Shown here: positions 19,822 through 30,653 of the stretch, piece by piece | Layout: the number at the start of each line of letters is the position of its first letter | Position numbering within the stretch: the stretch's first letter is position 1 | Assembly: GCA_002104935.1 (NCBI GenBank) | Contig: MCGT01000003.1 | Location: 620,001 to 684,000, forward strand | DNA length: 64,000 nt | Reading direction: 5' to 3' | Source: Hesseltinella vesiculosa | Lineage: Eukaryota; Mucoromycota; Mucoromycetes; Mucorales; Cunninghamellaceae | Notes under the pieces: model-generated | Seen by the model: the letters and a program-made list of their open reading frames with translations, nothing else | The model's database searches: none | Told to the model about the DNA's origin: nothing | Program-made: the position numbers and the translations under genes

Positions 19822-21684
19822 ATGACTCAAGCAGTGGAAGTAAAAGACTTAACGCCTGAACAACTGGTTTTGCAAAAGAAGCTTGTCAAGATCCTTGATT
19901 TCAGACTCCTTGTGTAAGTTTATTGTGATCGATTCATTCAAAATGCATGATCGCCATTGGACTCACCACTCTCCTCTTCTGATTGATTGGGTAGGTGGAG
20001 CTTCTTTGCTTATTTTTGTAATGGTCTAGACAGAAATAACATGCCGTAAGAACCTCCACTGGCAAGCACCGAGTGTGTGAACTGACTTTTTTTTTGCCCA
20101 AACAGGTACGCATATACTAGCGGCATGCCCGAAGATCTGGGCTTGGTCAAGGACCAATACAACTGGGCTGTGACCATGGTAATTTCGCCATGTTTTCTTT
20201 TCTTGATATATTCTTACACAACCGTTTCACGCTAGTTCTTTATCGGTTATGTGATCCTTCAAATTCCTAGCAACGCCATTATCACCCGTGTGCGTCCCAG
20301 TATCATGTTGCCTACCATTACCTTCCTTTGGGGAGCTGTTGTTTCGTTCATGTCGCTTGTGAAGAACCCTCAAGGCCTTTATGGTCTCCGTATTACGTTG
20401 GGTTTCAGTGAAGCTGTAAGCCTTTTCATCCACGCCATTGATTTGATGCTCACCAGATATCTGTAGGCTTTTTACCCCGGTATTGTCTACTTGCTGGGTT
20501 CCTGGTACACCAAGGAAGAACTTGGTGCTCGCACTGCCATCTTTGTTGCTGGCTCCCAACTTTCTGGTGCTTTCTCTGGTTTAATTAGCGGTGCCATCTC
20601 TCAAACTCTGCACGGCCAGAATGGCATGAGCGGCTGGGTAATTCGTAAAAAAAAGTCAAACGACCAAAACTCACTCTTTTTTTTGCATTTCAGAAATGGC
20701 TGTTCATCATTGAAGGTGTGATTGCTATGTTTGTCGCATTGTTTGGGTTCTTCTTGTTGCCTGACATGCCTGCCAACACCCGCTTCTTGTCCCCTGAATT
20801 ACGTGAATTGGCCGTGTACCGTCTGCAGCGCCAAGGCCGTCAAACCAACATCACTGGCTTCAACTGGGTCACCTTCCGCAACTTGTTCAGCTCCCCATAT
20901 ATCCTCATTTACATCATTGTGTTCTCCATCATGCAAATCGGGATGCAAATGCTCACTCAATTCCCTATTATCCTCAAGACCATGGGCTATGACACTACTT
21001 GGGCCAGTTATATGAATGCTCCTGTTTGGGTGGTGGCTGCCATTGTCATTATTGCTCAAGGCTATCTCTCCGATTGGAAGGGCGCTCGTGTCTGGCACGT
21101 TGTTGGCGGTGCCATCATCACCATTGTCTTCTATATTATTCTTGTCGCCGTTAACGGCGGCGAAGTTTCTACCACCCTTCTGTTTGTCTGTGTCTACTTT
21201 ATCACTCGTAAGTTCCTCTGGAGCATACAAAAAAAAAAAAACAACGAAAAATGGCTCATCTACCATTCTCTCTTCTGCAGCTGTCCTTGGTATCAGTCCC
21301 ATCTTCATGACTTGGTTGAACGAATTTTATTCCGTTGATGTCGAAACCCGTGCCCTTGCCATTGCTACCGTCAATAGCATTGGTAATCTCGCTCCTAACT
21401 TTGCCAACGTCAAGGTAAACCAGTACACATTGTCCAAAAAAGGGCTCCTGGTACTGACTCCTTGATTTTCTTTTTGCTAGATCTGGCTCGTCTCTGACGC
21501 TCCTGCTTTCAGAAATGGCAAGATCATTACCATGTCCTTGATGATTTTGCTCGTGATTTTGGTCATTGCCATGCACTACTGTCAACAAGCTGGCTTGTGG
21601 CTGCCAAAGCGCTCAGACAAGATCGAAACCGACAGCACCGTCTCCAACATGGATAAACCCCACGAAGCCGATGAAACTGTGTAA
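19822..21684 (+). CDS. MFS permease, anion:cation symporter (Dal5/Tna1-like) family
   Basis: Eight exons are read: 19822-19913, 19995-20045, 20106-20178, 20236-20415, 20467-20637, 20694-21207, 21281-21414 and 21481-21684. They give 472 residues, normal for a 12-helix MFS protein. The sequence WSFFAYFCNGLDRNNM in helix 1 and the downstream YNWAVTMFFIGYVILQIPSN are typical of the Dal5 allantoate/Tna1 nicotinate family. GLRITLGFSEA and WYTKEELGAR are the matching loop motifs. The central cytosolic loop starts at LPDMPANTRFLSPEL, and the tail is hydrophilic. Members import vitamins, allantoate or other organic anions with protons at the plasma membrane. I cannot name the substrate. The gene ends 460 bp from the 3' end of the Fanzor-type gene, tail-to-tail. 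Confidence 0.88.
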
Positions 21685-21842
21685 ATTGCCCTTACACCCT
21701 CTCGATTTTTTTTTACCTCCATCCGCATTATCTCTCTCTGTATCATTATTTGTATTTTATAATTTCTCCCGTTTCATTTGTATCAACTCATCTATGCTTT
21801 GAAATTAAATCTAATCCTTGGAGTTTACACTTTATTTAAAAA

Positions 21843-21992
21843 AATGTCGCAGTGATAGGAATGCAAATGTCGCAAAAAGAGCTATTAAACATGGAAATGT
21901 GAAGGATAAGTTTAGCATATGATGGCGAATAGAATTTAACTTACCAATAACGATAAATTGGGAAGATGCCAAAGGATTGCAAATGTCGCAAA
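21843..21992. repeat. Direct repeats at the 3' flank of the Fanzor-type gene
   Basis: TGCAAATGTCGCAAA occurs exactly at 21862-21876 and again at 21978-21992, 116 bp apart. A shorter related piece, AATGTCGCA, lies at 21843-21851. They sit between the 3' ends of the MFS gene and the Fanzor-type gene. They could be element termini, a guide-RNA scaffold part or unrelated repeats; sequence alone does not decide. Confidence 0.7.
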
Positions 21993-22143
21993 GACATTAG
22001 AAATTGAGGAAAGTGGTGAGAAAATGACTTTTTTTTTTTTTTTTTTTTTGCAATCTTACCTGTAAATATACTTCAAACATCAACAAAAAAAAAACGCTGA
22101 CGTTGCCATCTATTGATGGTAGTTTTTTTTTTTTTTTTCGTTT

Positions 22144-25100
22144 TCCTACAATATAAAAAAGTATGAGAGATGCTCAGATATTATACGCCCCAAGCACTTA
22201 CATGAATGCCAGAGGGTTATGGCGGGGAGAGTGGGGCGAGGTTGGTGGTGTTCAGGAGGGCGGGTCAACGCAAGCGGCCGAGCGCCGTTGCTGATGGTTT
22301 CGTCGAGGATCCAGAACATGTTGGCAGCGGCGGACACGTCTCGATCCCACACCGTTTGGCAAGTGGTGCAGAACTTCAAAGCAAAGATAGACGACTGATC
22401 TTGCGTGCGCACGGGAGACAGTTGGTCACCACAGGTGCTGCAGTTCTAGTTTGGATCAGCAAATTAGAAATGCCCACCACGCTCATTTTTTGACGTTCTT
22501 ACCTGGCTGGTCCAGAACTCGTTGGTGTGGGCAACCATGCAGAACGCTCGGTGCTGTCGTTCGATCAAGTGCTGTCTGACGTTGTTCGTTCTGCCCACTG
22601 CGTGCCCACGAAAATGTTGGGCATCTCGACCAACCATGGCATCACCGAATGAGATCAGTGGCAGGCCATCCACTGTCTCTTTGGAGCCGTGATACGGTAA
22701 CTTGCTGGCTCGTATGCGGCTAGATTATACATAGAAAAGGAACATGAGATAACGCAAATAGGCCATTTTTTGTATTACGTTGGTTGCTGAGGGGGGTCGA
22801 GGTATTTTTGTTGGAGTGTCAGAAGATGCTGCTCCAATGCTTCAATTTCGCTGTTTATGGCAGCTGTAGCAAGGTCATGCGCTGTACCATATTGATCTAG
22901 TGCGTGGTTCATTTGTCGAGCAAATCGGCGCTGGTCTTCTTCGGGTCGAGTTTCAGGGTGCACACCAAGTGGCTGGTCCAAGGTTATGCGCATCATCTGG
23001 TCCATCAGCTCACCATGTTGTTCGCGCAAGCGCCCCAGATTATCCATTCGAGACTTCGTGTTGTTGTACTCGTCCTTGATTTGCAGCAACCGAGCATGCC
23101 TTCTTCGTTGTGCCTGTCGCTTTCGTTGCTTTCGATTTTTCCTTGTCTTTCGCTTGTCTCGACAGCGTCGGGTGTACTTGCGAGATCCAGTGGTGATGAA
23201 GTTGGCAGCAGTGGCAATTGCTCGTTGCTTGCCTTTGACTAATTCGAAGTTGGAGATCGCATGGTCTGTGTTGTAAAAGGCAAAGGTTGACTCGGAGCAT
23301 ATGAGTTTGTGTTGGACGGTCTGGCGAATGGCAACGGGATCGGCGGTTTTGGTCATGGGCGTATTCGCCTCAATGTCCGCCATAGTCTCGTAGGCATGCA
23401 CTTGCTCAGGCACCGATGGCAGGGGCTGGATCTTGCGACGATTCATATCTCGTTGAATATGCGACTCCTTGCTGGTGGTGCAATACTCTTTCATGGACAT
23501 TCGGCGTACCGCATGAGGTTCATGGCCTCGCCCAAAGGAGGTGGTCATAACTGCGCGCCGACCAGGATCAATACCACAAAGAGTGAAGCCAGCAACGTCT
23601 TGGTTGGCCAGGTCGGGTGTGTGAATGACAGGTGGATCAGGGCCATGGGGTAGGCGGGAAAAGACAACGTGCAGTTGCACTCCATCCGTTCGCATCACAC
23701 CAGAAAAAAAATGACCACGAATCCATGCCCGGCGGAGTGATTCAAAGCTAAAAAAAAAAAAAAAAAAAAAGGTTAGGCCTCTTGCTCGTTTTATTTTCCA
23801 CATTTTCCCTCCTGCATCTATCCATTTACCAGGGGTATCCAAGCTTTTCAAAAGCAAACACTTGCCAAAAGATGTGTAGCTTGCGCAAAAATGGTGGCAA
23901 TCTTGTCACTTGGTCGTTTGGTGATTGCCGAGAGCCTGTGAGTTGTGTGATGTTTTCAGGTGTGATGTCCACGAACCGAGGTTTGGACGAAGGAAGCGGC
24001 AAGAGAGTGAATGAGGGCACTTCGATATCATTTTCATCACCAATTGTTGCACGGTAATGATCATACACGTCGAGTATTGCTCGTAAAATTGGTAGGTGCC
24101 GACCTGGGTCAGCACGCAGTGTCTCTTGGGTAATCGTTGGTAACTGTGGAGGTTTCATCGCCCATAGTTCGTTCTAAACCAGCACCGTAAGAGATATATG
24201 TCGTTCTGGTATTTCCACAGGTAGGGGCTCCATATTTCGGGCAATCATGGCAAAGGTTTGGTAGACGTAATCCTTGATGATACCGAGGATTCTGGAAGGA
24301 GGTTCCTACAAAGAGAAAAATAAAAGTATGGAGGTCAGCCAAATTTGGACATGTCGCTTTTTTTTTCTGCCTGCTTCCTACCTCACCGTCAACAGCAAAG
24401 CGAAATTTCACAAACTTCTTGATTCGGCCTTCAAAGTTCTCCGTAATGTGATTACGGTTTGCAGAAGCCTGAAGCTTACAGGCCATGGACAGCTCGGCGG
24501 TATGACCAGGGGTGTCATATGTAGCGACGTTCAGCAAATCTTGGTTGAATTCATGCCAGTGAGTTAGCACAGTGCCCGGCACACGTTCATCGGACCGTTC
24601 CAGGAATGCATTCAAGTGACCACGTGTCAATTGAGTCATCAAGTAAAGGCCGTTCTGTGTAAACAAAAAAGGCGGGACTTGATCGGAGTGATGGGTGGCA
24701 TAATCCAGCAGGAAAAGCTGCAGCCGTGTCAATGTCCTACGCAGATAATCGGACTTGGCCTTGATGTTGGTGATCAGGACGTTGCGATAGGTTGGTCGGA
24801 CAATGGAATCAAAACTACGGACGCGAGTGTAATCTTCAGAGGCAGGCAGTCGTGATGACATGAATTGCTTCTTGCTTAGCGCTCTGAATGGGCAGGCAGG
24901 GTTGGATGATCGTGAGTGGCCAGGAAGGCCGCAGGTTGGGCATGTTTCAGGCGGGTGTTGATTTTGTGCTGCCTCCCGCAACTGCTCATCGCCAAGACGC
25001 TGGAGAACGTTGATCTCGTTCATCATGTCACTATCAGAGCTTGTTGTGGCAACGATCGCTATCAAAAATAAAAGTTAAATAGCCATGCAAAAGCTGAAAA

Positions 25101-25449
25101 GAAGATGCACTTACGATGTGATGGAGGGATATAAAATGGACATTGTCGAGATCGGCTTGTTTGATGATGCGGGGAGCCACAAGCCTCGCACACGCGTAAT
25201 CCTAGTTATAAAAACCAAGTCAATGCCAATGCCAACGTTGTGCTCTCATTGCATATTACCACCACGGTGCTTACGCACCCACGTTAGCAGGATCATGGCT
25301 TGCTGGCGTGTCAGTAGATGAGTTGTAGCGAAGCGGTCTTCATCACGTGTCAAGTCATTCAGCGTTGCTGTCGGTACATTGATAAGGATCAAAAACCAGC
25401 ATTGCATGATCTTTTTGCTGGCTCCTAACGGTGGATGTTGTTGCTCCAT
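22144..25449 (-). CDS. Fanzor-type RNA-guided nuclease (eukaryotic TnpB homologue)
   Basis: Exons are read leftward: 25449-25260, 25201-25115, 25058-24382, 24305-24219, 24173-23830, 23747-22779, 22719-22503 and 22445-22202. A TGA stop is completed across the last splice (22145-22144). The product is about 938 residues. Two CX2CX4HX7C knuckles lie at C68-C84 and C132-C148. A long helical region follows. The RuvC-like nuclease consists of GIDPGRR (D522), ISFGDAM (810-812), NEFWTSQ (E852), a zinc finger formed by C859/C862/C883/C886, and WDRDVSAAANM (D893). In known Fanzors the canonical RuvC-II glutamate is lost and a shifted glutamate is used, which fits E852. Fanzors cut DNA guided by an RNA made from the element's end. 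Caveat: 24174-24218 is either a 45-nt intron with a weak GTGGAA donor or an in-frame stretch ending in TAG, which would make the copy defective. Confidence 0.82.
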
Positions 25450-25579
25450 GAATACAATAATAAGGCAGCAATGAAGAAATAAAAGAAAAACGAAAAAAGA
25501 GAGAAAAAAAAAAAGCGCGACGCCTTTCCTTCTGCTGGTCCTGCTTTATTTTTTTTTCTCCTTCAAACAACTTTGCTTG
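25450..25579. promoter_or_regulatory. Short divergent interval between Fanzor-type gene and small gene
   Basis: Only 130 bp separate the two divergent start codons. The plus strand is A-rich to 25513, then T-rich from 25548. If both genes are expressed, this must serve as a shared promoter. No terminal inverted repeat was visible here. Confidence 0.4.
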
Positions 25580-25982
25580 ATGTTACAAACCAACTACCCA
25601 TCTGTTCGGCCACCTCTTCCTGGTATTTCTGCAGGTGCAGAACACATCAGAGATATGCTTGACAACCTTCACCATCTTCCTATCAAACAACAACGCTTTG
25701 TATTACGGTCGTTGATTGAAAAATTCCCCATGGAACCACACGTTTGGATATTAGCCATCGAGCTAGAAAAAAACGATAACAAGAACGATGCTGCTCAGGA
25801 CATGTTACTTGATGCCTTGGGGAATCATCCCACAGATGAATACTTGCTTTATTTGCGAGGTAACTTCCAAACCCAATATCACGCATGGCATACCTGTATA
25901 AACCTCAACCTTTTTATTTTCTAGATCATCCGTAGACAAAGTATCAAAAAATAAACTCGTTCCCAAAGAGAAGCACACATAA
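25580..25982 (+). CDS. Small helical protein, hypothetical
   Basis: Exon 1 is 25580-25859 (MLQTNYPSVRPPLPG, ending TDEYLLYLR). Exon 2 begins at one of two tandem acceptors. Use of the AG at 25923-25924 adds only DHP before a stop. Use of the AG at 25934-25935 adds DKVSKNKLVPKEKHT and ends at 25982, for 108 residues. The protein is helical, with a pattern (EPHVWILAIELEKND) that recalls one TPR/HAT-like helical pair but no full repeat array. I recognise no family. It may be a genuine small gene or the truncated 5' end of a longer gene interrupted by accessory DNA. Confidence 0.5.
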
Positions 25983-26189
25983 TTTTAATGAGCGTAGCAT
26001 TGATAGTACTCTGAAGAGCTAAAGCAATTGCCATACACGTACGTGATAGTAAATCCCAACCTGCATTGGCCATACAATCTGAGTTCCTCGTACTTTTTCT
26101 AATCCACTTTGCTTCAACTCATGTACCTCGTTCGCTTCGGCTGCCTATTTTTTTTTTTTTTTAAAAAAGGAAAAGCATTGGTCCATTTA

Positions 26190-27300
26190 CTTGTTGGACT
26201 GCAGGGTGATGGGTAGCTTTACCTCGATATTTGCAGCCTTGGCGGCAGTCATGGTGGCGTTGTTCTCGCTCGGTGGGTCAAGCCAAAGTCACAGGAGCAG
26301 GCGCAGCAGATATTGTAGCATGGTCTTGAGTGATTTCCCAGAAAGAAGGTTTTGAATGTTGGTTTCCAACTTGTTGTTGTAGATGGATCGCAGGTCGCTG
26401 GTCATGATGCCAAGGTCAGGACGACGAGTTGTAACATCCACGTCAGATAGGACCACACTGGGTGGTTGGCTGTTGTGGACGCCTGGGTCTTGCCGAAGGT
26501 TGTTGATAAGAAGAGGTATTGTATGGGGTCAATTGAGAATAAATCGTCCGTCAACGCACGAGTAGGGGGTGGAAGCGCAAAAAAACGTCATTTCTGTCGA
26601 CTCAGACCTGACTCACAAAATAAGGTGAGTCCATCAGCTGGTCTGATATCCATCATACCATTGTACTGTACAAATCAGGACTCTGAGTCGTAGCAAATTT
26701 TAGCAAAGTCGCTTGCACTAAAAATGTCATTCCTTGCCAGTAATTGGTCACTTCACTCATCGCTGTCTTGAATAACCCGGAGAGCTCATTTCTCAGCGCT
26801 AGACCCGGCGTCAGATTGGAAATCACTTGCCAGGATCGATGTCACGCTCTTGTGAACCCAAGGATCTCTTCTTTTATCTTGGTGGTAGGTGGAGTGGAGG
26901 AAGAGGATGGGTCGGTGGACAAGGGGAACGCAGTAGAGCAGGACGCTTGCTCTTTTGATGCAGTTACCCATGGCTTCGGCTAATGTTTCAGAGGACAATG
27001 ATGCAAATGACTCATTTATCGAGCTTTTCCTGACTTGCATGAACGTGTTCTTCTTGCTGTATTTATAAAGGAACCGGGCTTCCAGTGACGGGCATCATCA
27101 ATATACTTCAGCTGACCTTTGGTAGCCGTAAAACATTGTCCAGCTCCATCTTGGTCTTGCTATGGTCATTGGCATTCAACAGTTTCGCCTTGATGTGACG
27201 TTGGAATTCAAGAATGAGGATCTCCTTTGCCTCCGTTTCATCTTTATTGCTTAGCGAAGGTTTTCGATCCGACCATTGCTGAGCACGACGCTTACCCATC
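26190..27300 (-). pseudogene. Multi-frameshift remnant of an unidentified gene
   Basis: Reading leftward, protein-like segments follow one another in different frames with no splice sites between them. Near 27157-27020 is KGQLKYIDDARHWKPGSF, ending in a Ser/Lys-rich KSGKAR. At 27020-26900 comes INESFASLSSETLAEAMGNC. Near 26940-26860 a different frame gives STPPTTKIKEEILGFTRA. At 26835-26660 comes ISNLTPGLALRNELSGLFKT. At 26510-26290 comes SVVLSDVDVTTRRPDLGIM, running to a stop at LLRLLL. The order and composition suggest one ancestral protein of about 300-400 residues broken by small indels. A lysine-rich open frame (27299-27108) lies at the upstream end. I recognise no domain, so its link to the neighbouring Fanzor-type gene is only positional. 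Confidence 0.55.
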
Positions 27301-27987
27301 AGGACGAAAGTACAAGGTGAAATAAATAAAAAGTATAAAAAAACGAGCGAAGTGATGAGTTTTGAATCGACAAGGAAAAAAAGAGGGTTTGACAGTGGGC
27401 AATGACCCTCTGATCGGAATGAAGTATTTTTTTGAAAGCAAGGGCGGAAAGCGTTTGTCCTTTAGCAGAAACGCAATGATATTCTTCAAGTGCCAAATCT
27501 CTTTCCTCAAGTCAATCAAGAGAATCCAGGCTCTGGAAATATGCATGGTGAAAAAGCTTGAATGTGGTCTATTGGCTTTGTCTCCGTTGTCTTTCTATCC
27601 TCACCTCGTGGCATTCATTTCCCCATGCGAATTTGAATGAGGAGTTTCAGAGAATACACGGACAAAAATGTTACACTGGGCTTGGAACCGTCCAATAAAA
27701 TGGATTTTCTGTTTTTGGAATTTTCATCTAACAGCACCCATCCGGGTTCATGTCTCTCTATCCTCACTCAAACCCGGATGCAAAAAAAAAGGGAGGCTGA
27801 AAAAACAATGGAGACAATGAAAACAAAGGGGCGGTCTAGGTCACAAACGTCTGATTCAGAAAGCCTTTTTATTCTTTGTATCCTTATGGACAACCTTGGT
27901 CCTTAGCTTTAAAATAAATCAGATACACTACTCAATACCAGGTGTACTTCATTTCATTATAGAAAAAAAATAAATGGCTGCAAATAA

Positions 27988-28735
27988 ACGATGTGGGAAA
28001 ATAAGATAAAAGTGGGGGGGGGGGATCGTTTCTTTTTGCCTGGCTTAAAACGGCAACGACAGATTGCTTCCTTTTCTTGTTTACTTACTTAGTGCCGGCG
28101 GTGGAGCTGCAGGACAATGAAAAAAAGGTGAGTTGCATTATGCAAATTCCCGCCAACATGCTCCTTGTCAGTTTCAATGCTTTTCACACGTTTAACTTGC
28201 CTGTAGACAGCCGTGACCGAACCCATTAACATGAAATCAAGGCGTACAGCAAGCATCTGTAGTTATCACTTAACCAAAGGGATAGGAATTGCTTGACGAA
28301 ATACAGTAGGATGTGGGGAAAAAAATTGAAAAAAAAGGGGGGGGTACTACTTCTCCCTTTGCTTAAACGGCAACGAAAAAAAGTTTGAATTGAACTAAAT
28401 TTGGTAAAGGAGAATGGAGGATTGTGTAACCGATTTTGACAGTAAAAAGTGTCAGGAAAAAAAAAAAGTTGGCGGCTGCTCTTTGATGAGTCCATTTTGT
28501 GCTACGCCTCCAACGCATGGCTTGCATGTAAACAAGAAAAACAGCAAAGTTTAGCCACTAGCATCGTGTCTTATCTCCATTCATACGGCCTTTGAAAAAA
28601 AGGTGAAGTCATAGACTCGAACAAACATCGATTGCAATGTGTGGTGGTCATTTACCCTGCCAGTTTAATGTTTTTCTCACTCTTTACAATAAAAAAGAAT
28701 GGATGTGGGAAAGAAAAAAATGGGGGGGGGGGGAG
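27988..28735. repeat. Three copies of an A-rich/G-tract module
   Basis: GATGTGGG followed by A-rich sequence and then a G-run of 8-13 bases occurs at about 27990-28024, 28310-28344 and 28702-28733. The first two copies also share a downstream CTTAAA(A)CGGCAACGA about 20-30 bases later. The copies are about 320-390 bp apart in the same orientation. Confidence 0.7.
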
Positions 28736-29939
28736 GGTGAAGAAGTGTCTTCTACTGCGACGTATTCAAAAATGGAAAGTGAGTCAACCCATTTTTTCCT
28801 TTTCCACTCATTTTCACATGATTGAAGAACAATGGAAAGCCTGATGAGTCATGGTTGCCGCAGTTTTTTTTTTTTGAGATAAAGGCGATGATTTCCAATT
28901 CATGTGTTTTTTTTTCTTCGGTCGTTTTTGACTTCGTGGTCGGAAACCTTTGTCCTCCAGGCTGTTCATATGATACTTGCATAGGCTACATTGATGAACG
29001 GCCGCGAGAGATTCTGGAGGTCCTATTATTTGTTGCAAGCATTCATTTGTATGCAGTAGGTAGTAGGGGTGAAGGTGGTAAGCGGGCCTATCGGTGGCCA
29101 TTGCCGGAGACCTTGGATTTAAGCTCGCCTTATGATGTCTCTTGGTAATGAAGGTGATCCGTCAACGTTGATTCCTCAACAGAGGGTGATTCCTCACCGG
29201 GGAGATGACGTTACGTTGTATCCGCAGGGTATGGGGGTTCAGCTGCTGCTGCTCGCAAGCAGGCGGGTGCTAACCCGTGGTCTTCCTGAGGAATTCACGG
29301 CGCGAATTGACTGCATTTAGCGGTAGCATTGGTCGTCTCGGGGGCAATCCCCTTGATGGTAGGCCGGAAAGAAGTGTGGGCCAGGAGGTCACAATGCTAC
29401 AGGTTATTGGTTACAACAACCTGTGAACCTTAAAATCACGAAAGAACAGCACTGGCCATCTATGGGAGCCAAGCTCGTAGTGGTGTATCTGTTCAAGAGG
29501 GACATTTTAGCTGAATGAACAGCACTACCGTTTGCTCTGTAAATGGTGTCACTCCGGCAATAAGGGATAGTCATAGGGACAAAGATGGCTTCCGCTGGGG
29601 AGGATTTCCACCCTCTGAAAAAAAGAAAAAAAAAACCAACTATTCAATAAAAAATGCTTTTACAATAAACACATTCCTCATTGACAATCCTAATCCCCAA
29701 TGAAGAGCAGGCATGGGCTGAGAAAAAAATGACTTTCTTTATTTTTTGATCGTTTCGTTTCTTTTTCCTACAATTAAATGGCAAAGGAAGAAACTTTACC
29801 GAACAAACCGGGAGGGAGATCTCTATTAAAAAAAAATAGAGTGCCGCCATTCACATGGCCAGCGTTTTTTTAACTGCTTTTGTCAAGCTGAGGAGAGCGA
29901 CTTTGAAGCAGGCATAACATTGGAAGAGCTAGACTTTCC

Positions 29940-30290
29940 AAAATGGATGGCCGTGTTTGCTGATGTGATGACGAGCTGTCTCGTGTGCACCAGCCAGGAA
30001 TCAAAGGCAGCGTGGGTATGCTGAATATGGGAACCCATTTTCTTTTGAAAAAAAAAAAAAAAATACGCAAACGTGCACAGCACTTTTGAGTGATAGGATC
30101 GATGTGACATTTTGTATGGGCACGCAAATGCATGAACGATGATGGTGCTGAAAAGATCAGGTCGATTGGTAAAAGTCGCCCAGCCAACTTTGGATGAGCT
30201 TCGTTTTGGCACCTCCGATTCACCAGCTAAAAAAAATGGAAAAGCGGCCGTTTTCGCCATGGGATCCCCAGGCCATTTGATGAAAAAATC
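29940..30290 (+). repeat. Dispersed repeat, copy A
   Basis: This copy shares order and sequence blocks with two copies near 58 kb: an (A/G)GAATC start, an A-run, GAGTGATAGGATCGATGTGA, GGTCGATTGGT, CGCCCAGCCAA, CACCTCCGATTC and an A-run. Copies are clearly diverged. On the minus strand all three retain similar peptide-like stretches (for example GESEV, then GWATFTNRP). Confidence 0.7.
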
Positions 30291-30653
30291 GCTAGGTCAT
30301 GATTGGTGTTTCATTTCATGGTATGGCTGCCCCAGTGGCTCCAATACAAGAGCAGGTGTCTATAGGGTGGTAGCTTATTGTCACGGCCTTCTGTGTGCTC
30401 CTGCTGTTCTTTTTAGTATCCATGGCATACTTGCTTATTATATTAAAAAAAAAGCTTACGAACTAACCTGGGCAAAAATGAAAATGCGCTGGCCAGAGCG
30501 GTCGTACGAAATTGGAAATTCAGAAAGATGCGAAAGCTGTGCAGCAGCTTTGAAAGAGTGAATTGATGTGGAAAATGCCAATTTATTTGGCAAATGGGCC
30601 GTGGATACAAAAGGGAGAAGGTAAATTGTGATAAAAATAGATTGAAGGGTAGA

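Follow-up and report, generated by a model that had tools for sequence, protein, structure and literature searches.

Among the described systems closest to the locus reported here, the Spu-1 elements of Spizellomyces punctatus are multi-copy, are bounded by 30-nt inverted repeats and, in the available text of Saito et al. 2023 (PMC10432273), are described as having no transposase between the repeats. In the Mucorales, the Fanzor1 elements MCi-2, MCi-4, MCi-5, ROr-4, and PBl-3 are mosaic, with a transposase that is mostly missing or partial, according to the available sections of Bao and Jurka 2013 (PMC3627910). Furthermore, PpFz1 of Parasitella parasitica carries a RuvC insertion, FRI, which the accessible part of PMC11423790 reports only from Parasitella and Rhizopus. 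At the level of the protein, a shifted glutamate sets Fanzors apart from most TnpBs, and TnpBs have been searched for with the pattern DPG x(120-160) E x6 CxxC x(12-18) CxxC x(4-8) D, both as given in the available text of Yoon et al. 2023 (PMC10711439). Literature searches pairing Fanzor with Mucoromycota, and Hesseltinella with TnpB, returned no paper.

The DNA analysed here, hereafter the window, is a 64,000-nt stretch of Hesseltinella vesiculosa (Mucorales, Cunninghamellaceae) that corresponds to C23:620001-684000 in a genome of 27.05 Mb and 85 contigs. The gene on its minus strand, running from 25449 to 22146, very probably belongs to a recently disabled copy of an H. vesiculosa DNA transposon that is non-autonomous and encodes a Fanzor1 RNA-guided DNA endonuclease; unbroken copies of the transposon would act by means of a transposase in trans, an omega-RNA, and cutting with TTTA as the TAM. 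The features of the locus, in window coordinates, are listed below.

21795..21824, minus strand: flanking sequence from which a guide would be taken were an omega-RNA to run past the element end, as the TnpB/Fanzor layout would imply
21825..27630, unstranded: what remains in the window of a putative Fanzor1 element (about 5.8 kb), delimited by homology of near copies; left terminus kept, right lost
21825..21851, minus strand: left terminal repeat (gene 3' end), reading TTACACTTTATTTAAAAAAATGTCGCA on the plus strand; on the gene strand an AATAAA occupies 21836-21831, with its position 12 nt from the terminus
22146..22445, minus strand: Fanzor exon 7, with the CxxC...CxxC zinc finger, WDRD (D893), and the stop
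22503..22719, minus strand: Fanzor exon 6, with the ISFGDA block and the shifted glutamate of NEFWTSQ (E852)
22779..23747, minus strand: Fanzor exon 5, with RuvC-I GIDPG (D522 in the 956-residue numbering) and the long basic insertion
23830..24305, minus strand: Fanzor exon 4, a single exon including 24218-24174 and an in-frame TAG, from copy comparison and P0001
24382..25058, minus strand: Fanzor exon 3, equivalent to P0001 residues 1-215
25115..25201, minus strand: Fanzor exon 2, homologous to P0002 by eye
25260..25449, minus strand: Fanzor exon 1, with ATG at 25449; resembles the P0002 N-terminus by eye
25580..25870, plus strand: divergent ORF of at least 97 aa, HAT/TPR-repeat-like from weak Pfam matches, 3.74-3.96 kb from the left end
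26220..27299, minus strand: disrupted 5' portion of another Fanzor-like gene (P0005/P0007 family), oriented as the Fanzor; tblastn matches it in pieces of 45-75% identity that fall in several frames
27631..27807, unstranded: another repeat, adjoining the point where the right end is lost; its copies at other places are 97-98% identical

The Fanzor identity of the window gene is supported by the layout of its motifs and by profile comparison. Joining eight pieces at GT-AG junctions (minus strand, 22146-25449) gives a protein of 956 residues in which the initial annotation's placement of D522 in GIDPG, the DPG of RuvC-I, was reproduced exactly; the shifted glutamate in NEFWTSQ (E852), the CxxC pairs (859-862 and 883-886), and D893 in WDRDVSAAANM were likewise all found as it had described. 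RuvC-II is rearranged, since the block taken as canonical, ISFGDAMVGRD, is without a glutamate and E852 stands six residues before the first CxxC, at C859. Set against the pattern of Yoon et al., the order of the motifs and the E-C and C-D spacings fit the window protein, whereas the CxxC-CxxC spacer (20) and the DPG-to-E distance (327, a hand count) lie outside it because of a 20-residue zinc-finger loop and the long basic insertion, respectively.

The proposal of a Fanzor-type protein also held in the profile searches. The PF07282 (TNB) profile scores 31.5 bits on the window protein (E 2e-7), above its cut-off of 26.3, and NCBIfam guided_TnpB scores 22.1 bits, under its full-length cut-off of 100, on P0001 (DM01DRAFT_1122431, NCBI-annotated), the best database relative of the window protein and 97% identical over 89% of it. 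Comparison with Fanzors and TnpBs by profile had been proposed for this protein; when a profile of P0001-P0004 was searched against the PDB, SpuFz1 came first (E 2e-6, from two stretches, each weak when taken by itself at i-E 0.11 and 0.2), the TnpB-like L79 second (0.0017), and GtFz1 third (0.0037). In that profile, the pattern of glutamate plus zinc finger is whole in P0001 and P0004 only; P0002 and P0003, as annotated, either end or skip sequence at this point. The search yielded 17 distinct PDB sequences at E<=1, those below GtFz1 being 11 TnpB-, TranC- or Cas12m-type proteins (0.006-0.2) and three unrelated ones (0.19-0.95), and it is this ranking that suggests a Fanzor1 assignment. A single-sequence search of the PDB with the Fanzor protein gave zero matches; an AlphaFold model of P0001 with three relatives (four sequences) was useless at a mean pLDDT of 39.6; and Fanzor homologues outside Hesseltinella were not found by a search that relies on shared 5-residue words and scored the 7991 best-sharing candidates.

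Introns are said to have been reported in Fanzors by Jiang et al. in 2023. For the window gene the initial annotation had counted at least seven, of which six are backed by annotated relatives, introns 1-2 by the homologue P0002 (by eye) and introns 3-6 by P0001, this support consisting of computed gene models. The other, the 45 nt at 24218-24174, turned out to be coding: all 12 of the 12 other copies have an open reading frame there, and the TAG occurs in the window copy only. In the window copy, seven exons separated by six introns are thus predicted, and the in-frame TAG would end translation before the catalytic RuvC core is reached. That the Fanzor gene is functional, with seven introns, and that the 45-nt piece is a real mini-intron removing the TAG is highly unlikely; in the window the piece does start with GT, end with AG, and sit in phase 0, but the 12 open copies are without the closing AG, and the annotated P0001, P0002, and P0003 all code through it. 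In addition, a further intron is possible at the gene 3' end (22202-22146, GTAAGT...TTGTAG). The last two introns have counterparts at identical protein positions in L062 of the C33 lineage, which is 65-68% identical, and are therefore older than that split. The suggestion of a long-resident gene stands with respect to the age of these introns and fails with respect to residence, because a multi-copy transposon gene is not a settled resident gene. Similarly, the description of the core as intact-looking has to be withdrawn in view of the TAG before it and of the loss of the element's right terminal repeat.

A 4.4-kb query produced 54 match rows in the genome, the window included, and PF07282 gave 46 genome matches at E<=1e-3, counted by exon and some of them under the cut-off. 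Three copies elsewhere in the genome (L010, L011, and L012), 98% identical and with the same exons, are open through all seven exon blocks, free of internal stops and of indels, and a partial copy with 99% identity (L019) has a 1-nt gap in exon 3. Open copies lie at C23:366349-370511, C12:1159-5315, and C35:51260-55188. Lineage B is 86-92% identical, and a 17-nt gap in its RuvC-I exon is common to five of the five copies that align there in one piece (L013-L017); in that exon the alignment of L018 is split in two and gapped, L020 aligns along just 64 nt, and L021 is unaligned. Between the window lineage (the window, L010, L011, and L012) and lineage B (L013 and L014), dN/dS is 0.27-0.29 over 896-899 codons, a codon comparison that establishes purifying selection between the two lineages; inside the window lineage it is 0.23-0.58 on few changes, and between the two B copies (L013 and L014) it is 0.78. 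Since open copies exist at 98% identity and dN/dS between the lineages is this low, the window copy would represent a young loss in a formerly constrained lineage. The same selection (dN/dS about 0.28), together with introns common to several lineages, might be expected of a domesticated Fanzor gene retained by the host instead of transposon cargo; such an origin has only the slimmest chance of being correct, because near-identical copies at several places have common ends and unrelated flanks, the window copy is broken, and the RuvC-I gap recurs throughout the one-piece-aligned copies of lineage B. A recently inactivated transposon copy thus remains the preferred reading. Separately, L026, L027, and L028 (C4, C12, and C23) are internally deleted derivatives with common deletion joints, window 23158 joined to 24050 and 24392 joined to 24562, and with the RuvC-I motif part gone.

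The gene is element-borne, as seen from common ends, many copies, and differing flanks. Near-copy homology starts at 21825-21826 and stops at 27609-27630, and other copies run past 27630 on the gene-5' side to ...GACATTTGAAAGTGG...CTGTAAA. The left end is matched at 17 places with 79-99% identity and the right end at 21 places, TAAA being present at 15 of the 17 still readable; six close-kin right ends are among the TAAA-bearing ones (L050-L055), and their flanks differ. TA adjoins both ends, with TTTA on the gene-5' side, these borders being compiled from ends of different copies, and no empty site was seen among the copies. The left and right terminal repeats have TACA and a AATGTCGCA-like box in common and are otherwise weakly alike, 69 of 2000 shuffles giving an equally good similarity. 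A DDE transposase was found neither in the Fanzor protein nor in the six further ORF pieces of the element that were scanned, and the matches listed for DDE_3 (at least 164 in the genome) and DDE_1 (28) show, by eye, no regular spacing to the ends. An unbroken element would be moved through its terminal repeats, between those TA and TTTA borders, by a transposase acting in trans.

A related left end, in which GATAAA replaces AATAAA, occurs as the TACACTTTATCC-type at ten places (C8, C10, C23, C25, C26, C45, C54, and C55) known from the left end alone. Among the DDE_3 matches listed, and by eye, one lies about 4.5-5.5 kb inward of three of these ten ends, and another lies 0.3 kb outside one TACACTTTATTCATG-type end; clustering of transposons can explain both. 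A further repeated stretch at window 28817-30504 has a 92% copy at C23:790801-792481. On the left, a gene convergent with the Fanzor, whose 3' side is at 21795..21824, looks from its translation like an MFS transporter, and the neighbours in the window, judged in the same way, look like ordinary fungal genes.

When left ends are compared, the same ends are seen to enclose five or more kinds of Fanzor: matches fall in the lineage of the window, in the C33 lineage (L062), in the P0002/P0003 lineage (L069, an ORF of which repeats the P0003 C-terminus), in a DPG lineage (L072/L074), and in a GTDYG lineage (L071). The last belongs to the P0005/P0007 family, whose broken 5' exons constitute window 26220-27299 and whose middle part has 38 genome matches, counted by exon. 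At L071:1825-2845 (minus strand), SGTDYG in place of DPG, the shifted glutamate NEARTSMVCPYC, and FGRD are seen by eye; from these motifs, and from the shared N-terminus and SGTDSG block of the relative P0007, the gene at 26.2-27.3 kb is taken as Fanzor-like. A candidate reading of that gene as a transposase was dropped on these grounds. The L071 pieces gave no match against Pfam, NCBIfam, or the PDB (single-sequence).

Many members of the P0005/P0007 family lie less than 3 kb from contig starts (C30:1206, C27:1591, C6:614, C56:1238, C18:767, C75:1166, C50:740, and C66:2438), where they are perhaps subtelomeric or mark assembly breaks in repeats. On C12, a lineage-B Fanzor (L013) stands in head-to-tail arrangement with the N-terminal portion of a further Fanzor behind it, the later part of which lies by the left end at 466975, the tandem being joined across 1.1 kb between the read loci L013 and L072; the window and C12 are read as two cases of tandem accumulation with the older gene decaying. 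The divergent ORF at 25580-25870 matches Prp6 at 7.6e-15 over the whole sequence with no individual repeat significant, matches Suf at 0.007, under the cut-off, and has 35 genome matches, its identity to the window's version being 39-54% between three lineages. Seventeen left ends were compared in total. Ten of them belong to the window, C33, and P0002/P0003 lineages; in eight of the ten the ORF lies 3.74-3.96 kb inward, with its strand relative to the end unchanged, and the other two adjoin contig ends. In the remaining seven, from other lineages, the ORF is absent at that distance.

The shared ends of the copies suggest, in addition, how a guide RNA might be made. The terminal 110-140 nt are conserved between lineages on the gene strand, and at 12 of the 17 left-end loci AATAAA stands exactly 12 nt from the end as the sole one in the last 330 nt of that strand; of the other five, four are without the end and L067 (the end of L010) is without the hexamer. 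Left-end pattern matches contain AATAAA in 19 of 30 cases, the pattern itself favouring AATAAA. Among the 17 readable right ends, outward-reading AATAAA occurs in none within the last 110 nt, and inward-reading AATAAA occurs 43-44 nt from the end in eight. Moreover, in the second Fanzor group (L003-L006 and L008; P0004 type), AATAAA is found in none of five within 330 nt of the homology stop; hence the terminal AATAAA is not general. Poly(A) cleavage usually takes place 10-30 nt downstream of AATAAA, so an RNA processed at the terminal hexamer would have its 3' end 4-24 nt outside the element, in the flank. That such cleavage would suit a flank-derived guide is a bold idea, and common descent of the ends accounts equally for AATAAA being conserved. 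The literature on Fanzor and polyadenylation, judged by title and start of abstract, contained nothing on poly(A)-made guides.

The predicted RNA fold of the terminal block is no better than that of shuffles (z -1.2 to +0.2 in five sequences), zero compensatory pairs were seen over the terminal 140 nt in 12 sequences, and Rfam at the gathering threshold gave no match in window 20000-29000. A conserved 3' block without a significant predicted fold would be in keeping with a RuvC protein devoid of guide-RNA activity, that is, a nuclease-dead or structural derivative, which is very improbable given that the D-E-D triad is kept in both the window and P0001 and that selection between the lineages is purifying. 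For unbroken copies of a guided Fanzor transposon, the Fanzor mRNA or a 3'-end RNA would extend across the conserved block at the terminus and on into flanking DNA, yielding an omega-RNA scaffold to which the flank contributes the guide; the RuvC nuclease would then cut the empty site, with TTTA as the TAM, and this cutting may help the element to persist or spread. A wider combination, which is unlikely to hold as a whole, is that AATAAA in the gene-3' repeat sets the Fanzor RNA 3' end 4-24 nt outside the element, mRNA cleavage and polyadenylation making the guide; that five or more kinds of Fanzor can be exchanged within the same pair of ends, the end-adjacent gene being the active one while the older genes behind it decay; and that the HAT-repeat-like protein helps this RNA processing.

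With 46 TNB and 38 second-family matches in 27 Mb and with common termini, this genome offers a test of the coupling of ends, guide, and Fanzor turnover in a eukaryote, and the ends common to several Fanzor kinds and the terminal AATAAA are worth specialist attention. The window gene adds a member to the fungal Fanzor1s, Fanzor1 elements being already known, and SpuFz1 is a shorter protein than the Hesseltinella Fanzor. The likeness to SpuFz1 and Spu-1, as the available text of Saito et al. describes them, consists in a Fanzor1 (the top PDB profile match) in a multi-copy, repeat-bounded element in which no transposase was found; in contrast, the conserved dinucleotide outside the 5' repeat is CA in Spu-1 and TT before TA in Hesseltinella, the 30-nt repeats of Spu-1 correspond to weak terminal repeats, and Hesseltinella has several Fanzor kinds per end pair and a divergent HAT-like ORF. 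In the available sections of Bao and Jurka 2013 (PMC3627910), the Mucorales elements such as MCi-2 resemble the present one in carrying Fanzor1 within mosaic DNA elements whose transposase is mostly missing or partial, but they have either 9-bp TSDs with MuDR-like ends or 6-12-bp TSDs without recognisable TIRs, whereas Hesseltinella has TA borders and the AATGTCGCA box; moreover, MCi-2 keeps a 6-kb 3' Fanzor region constant and varies its 5' region, whereas in Hesseltinella the ends are constant and the Fanzors vary. The Fanzor1 Tc/mariner elements of the same source have TA borders as in Hesseltinella, where, unlike in those elements, no mariner transposase was found in the element and no regular link to DDE_3 appears among the matches listed. 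Finally, PpFz1, as presented in the accessible part of PMC11423790, is likewise a Fanzor1 with an insertion in RuvC, the Hesseltinella insertion being known as a long basic stretch only.
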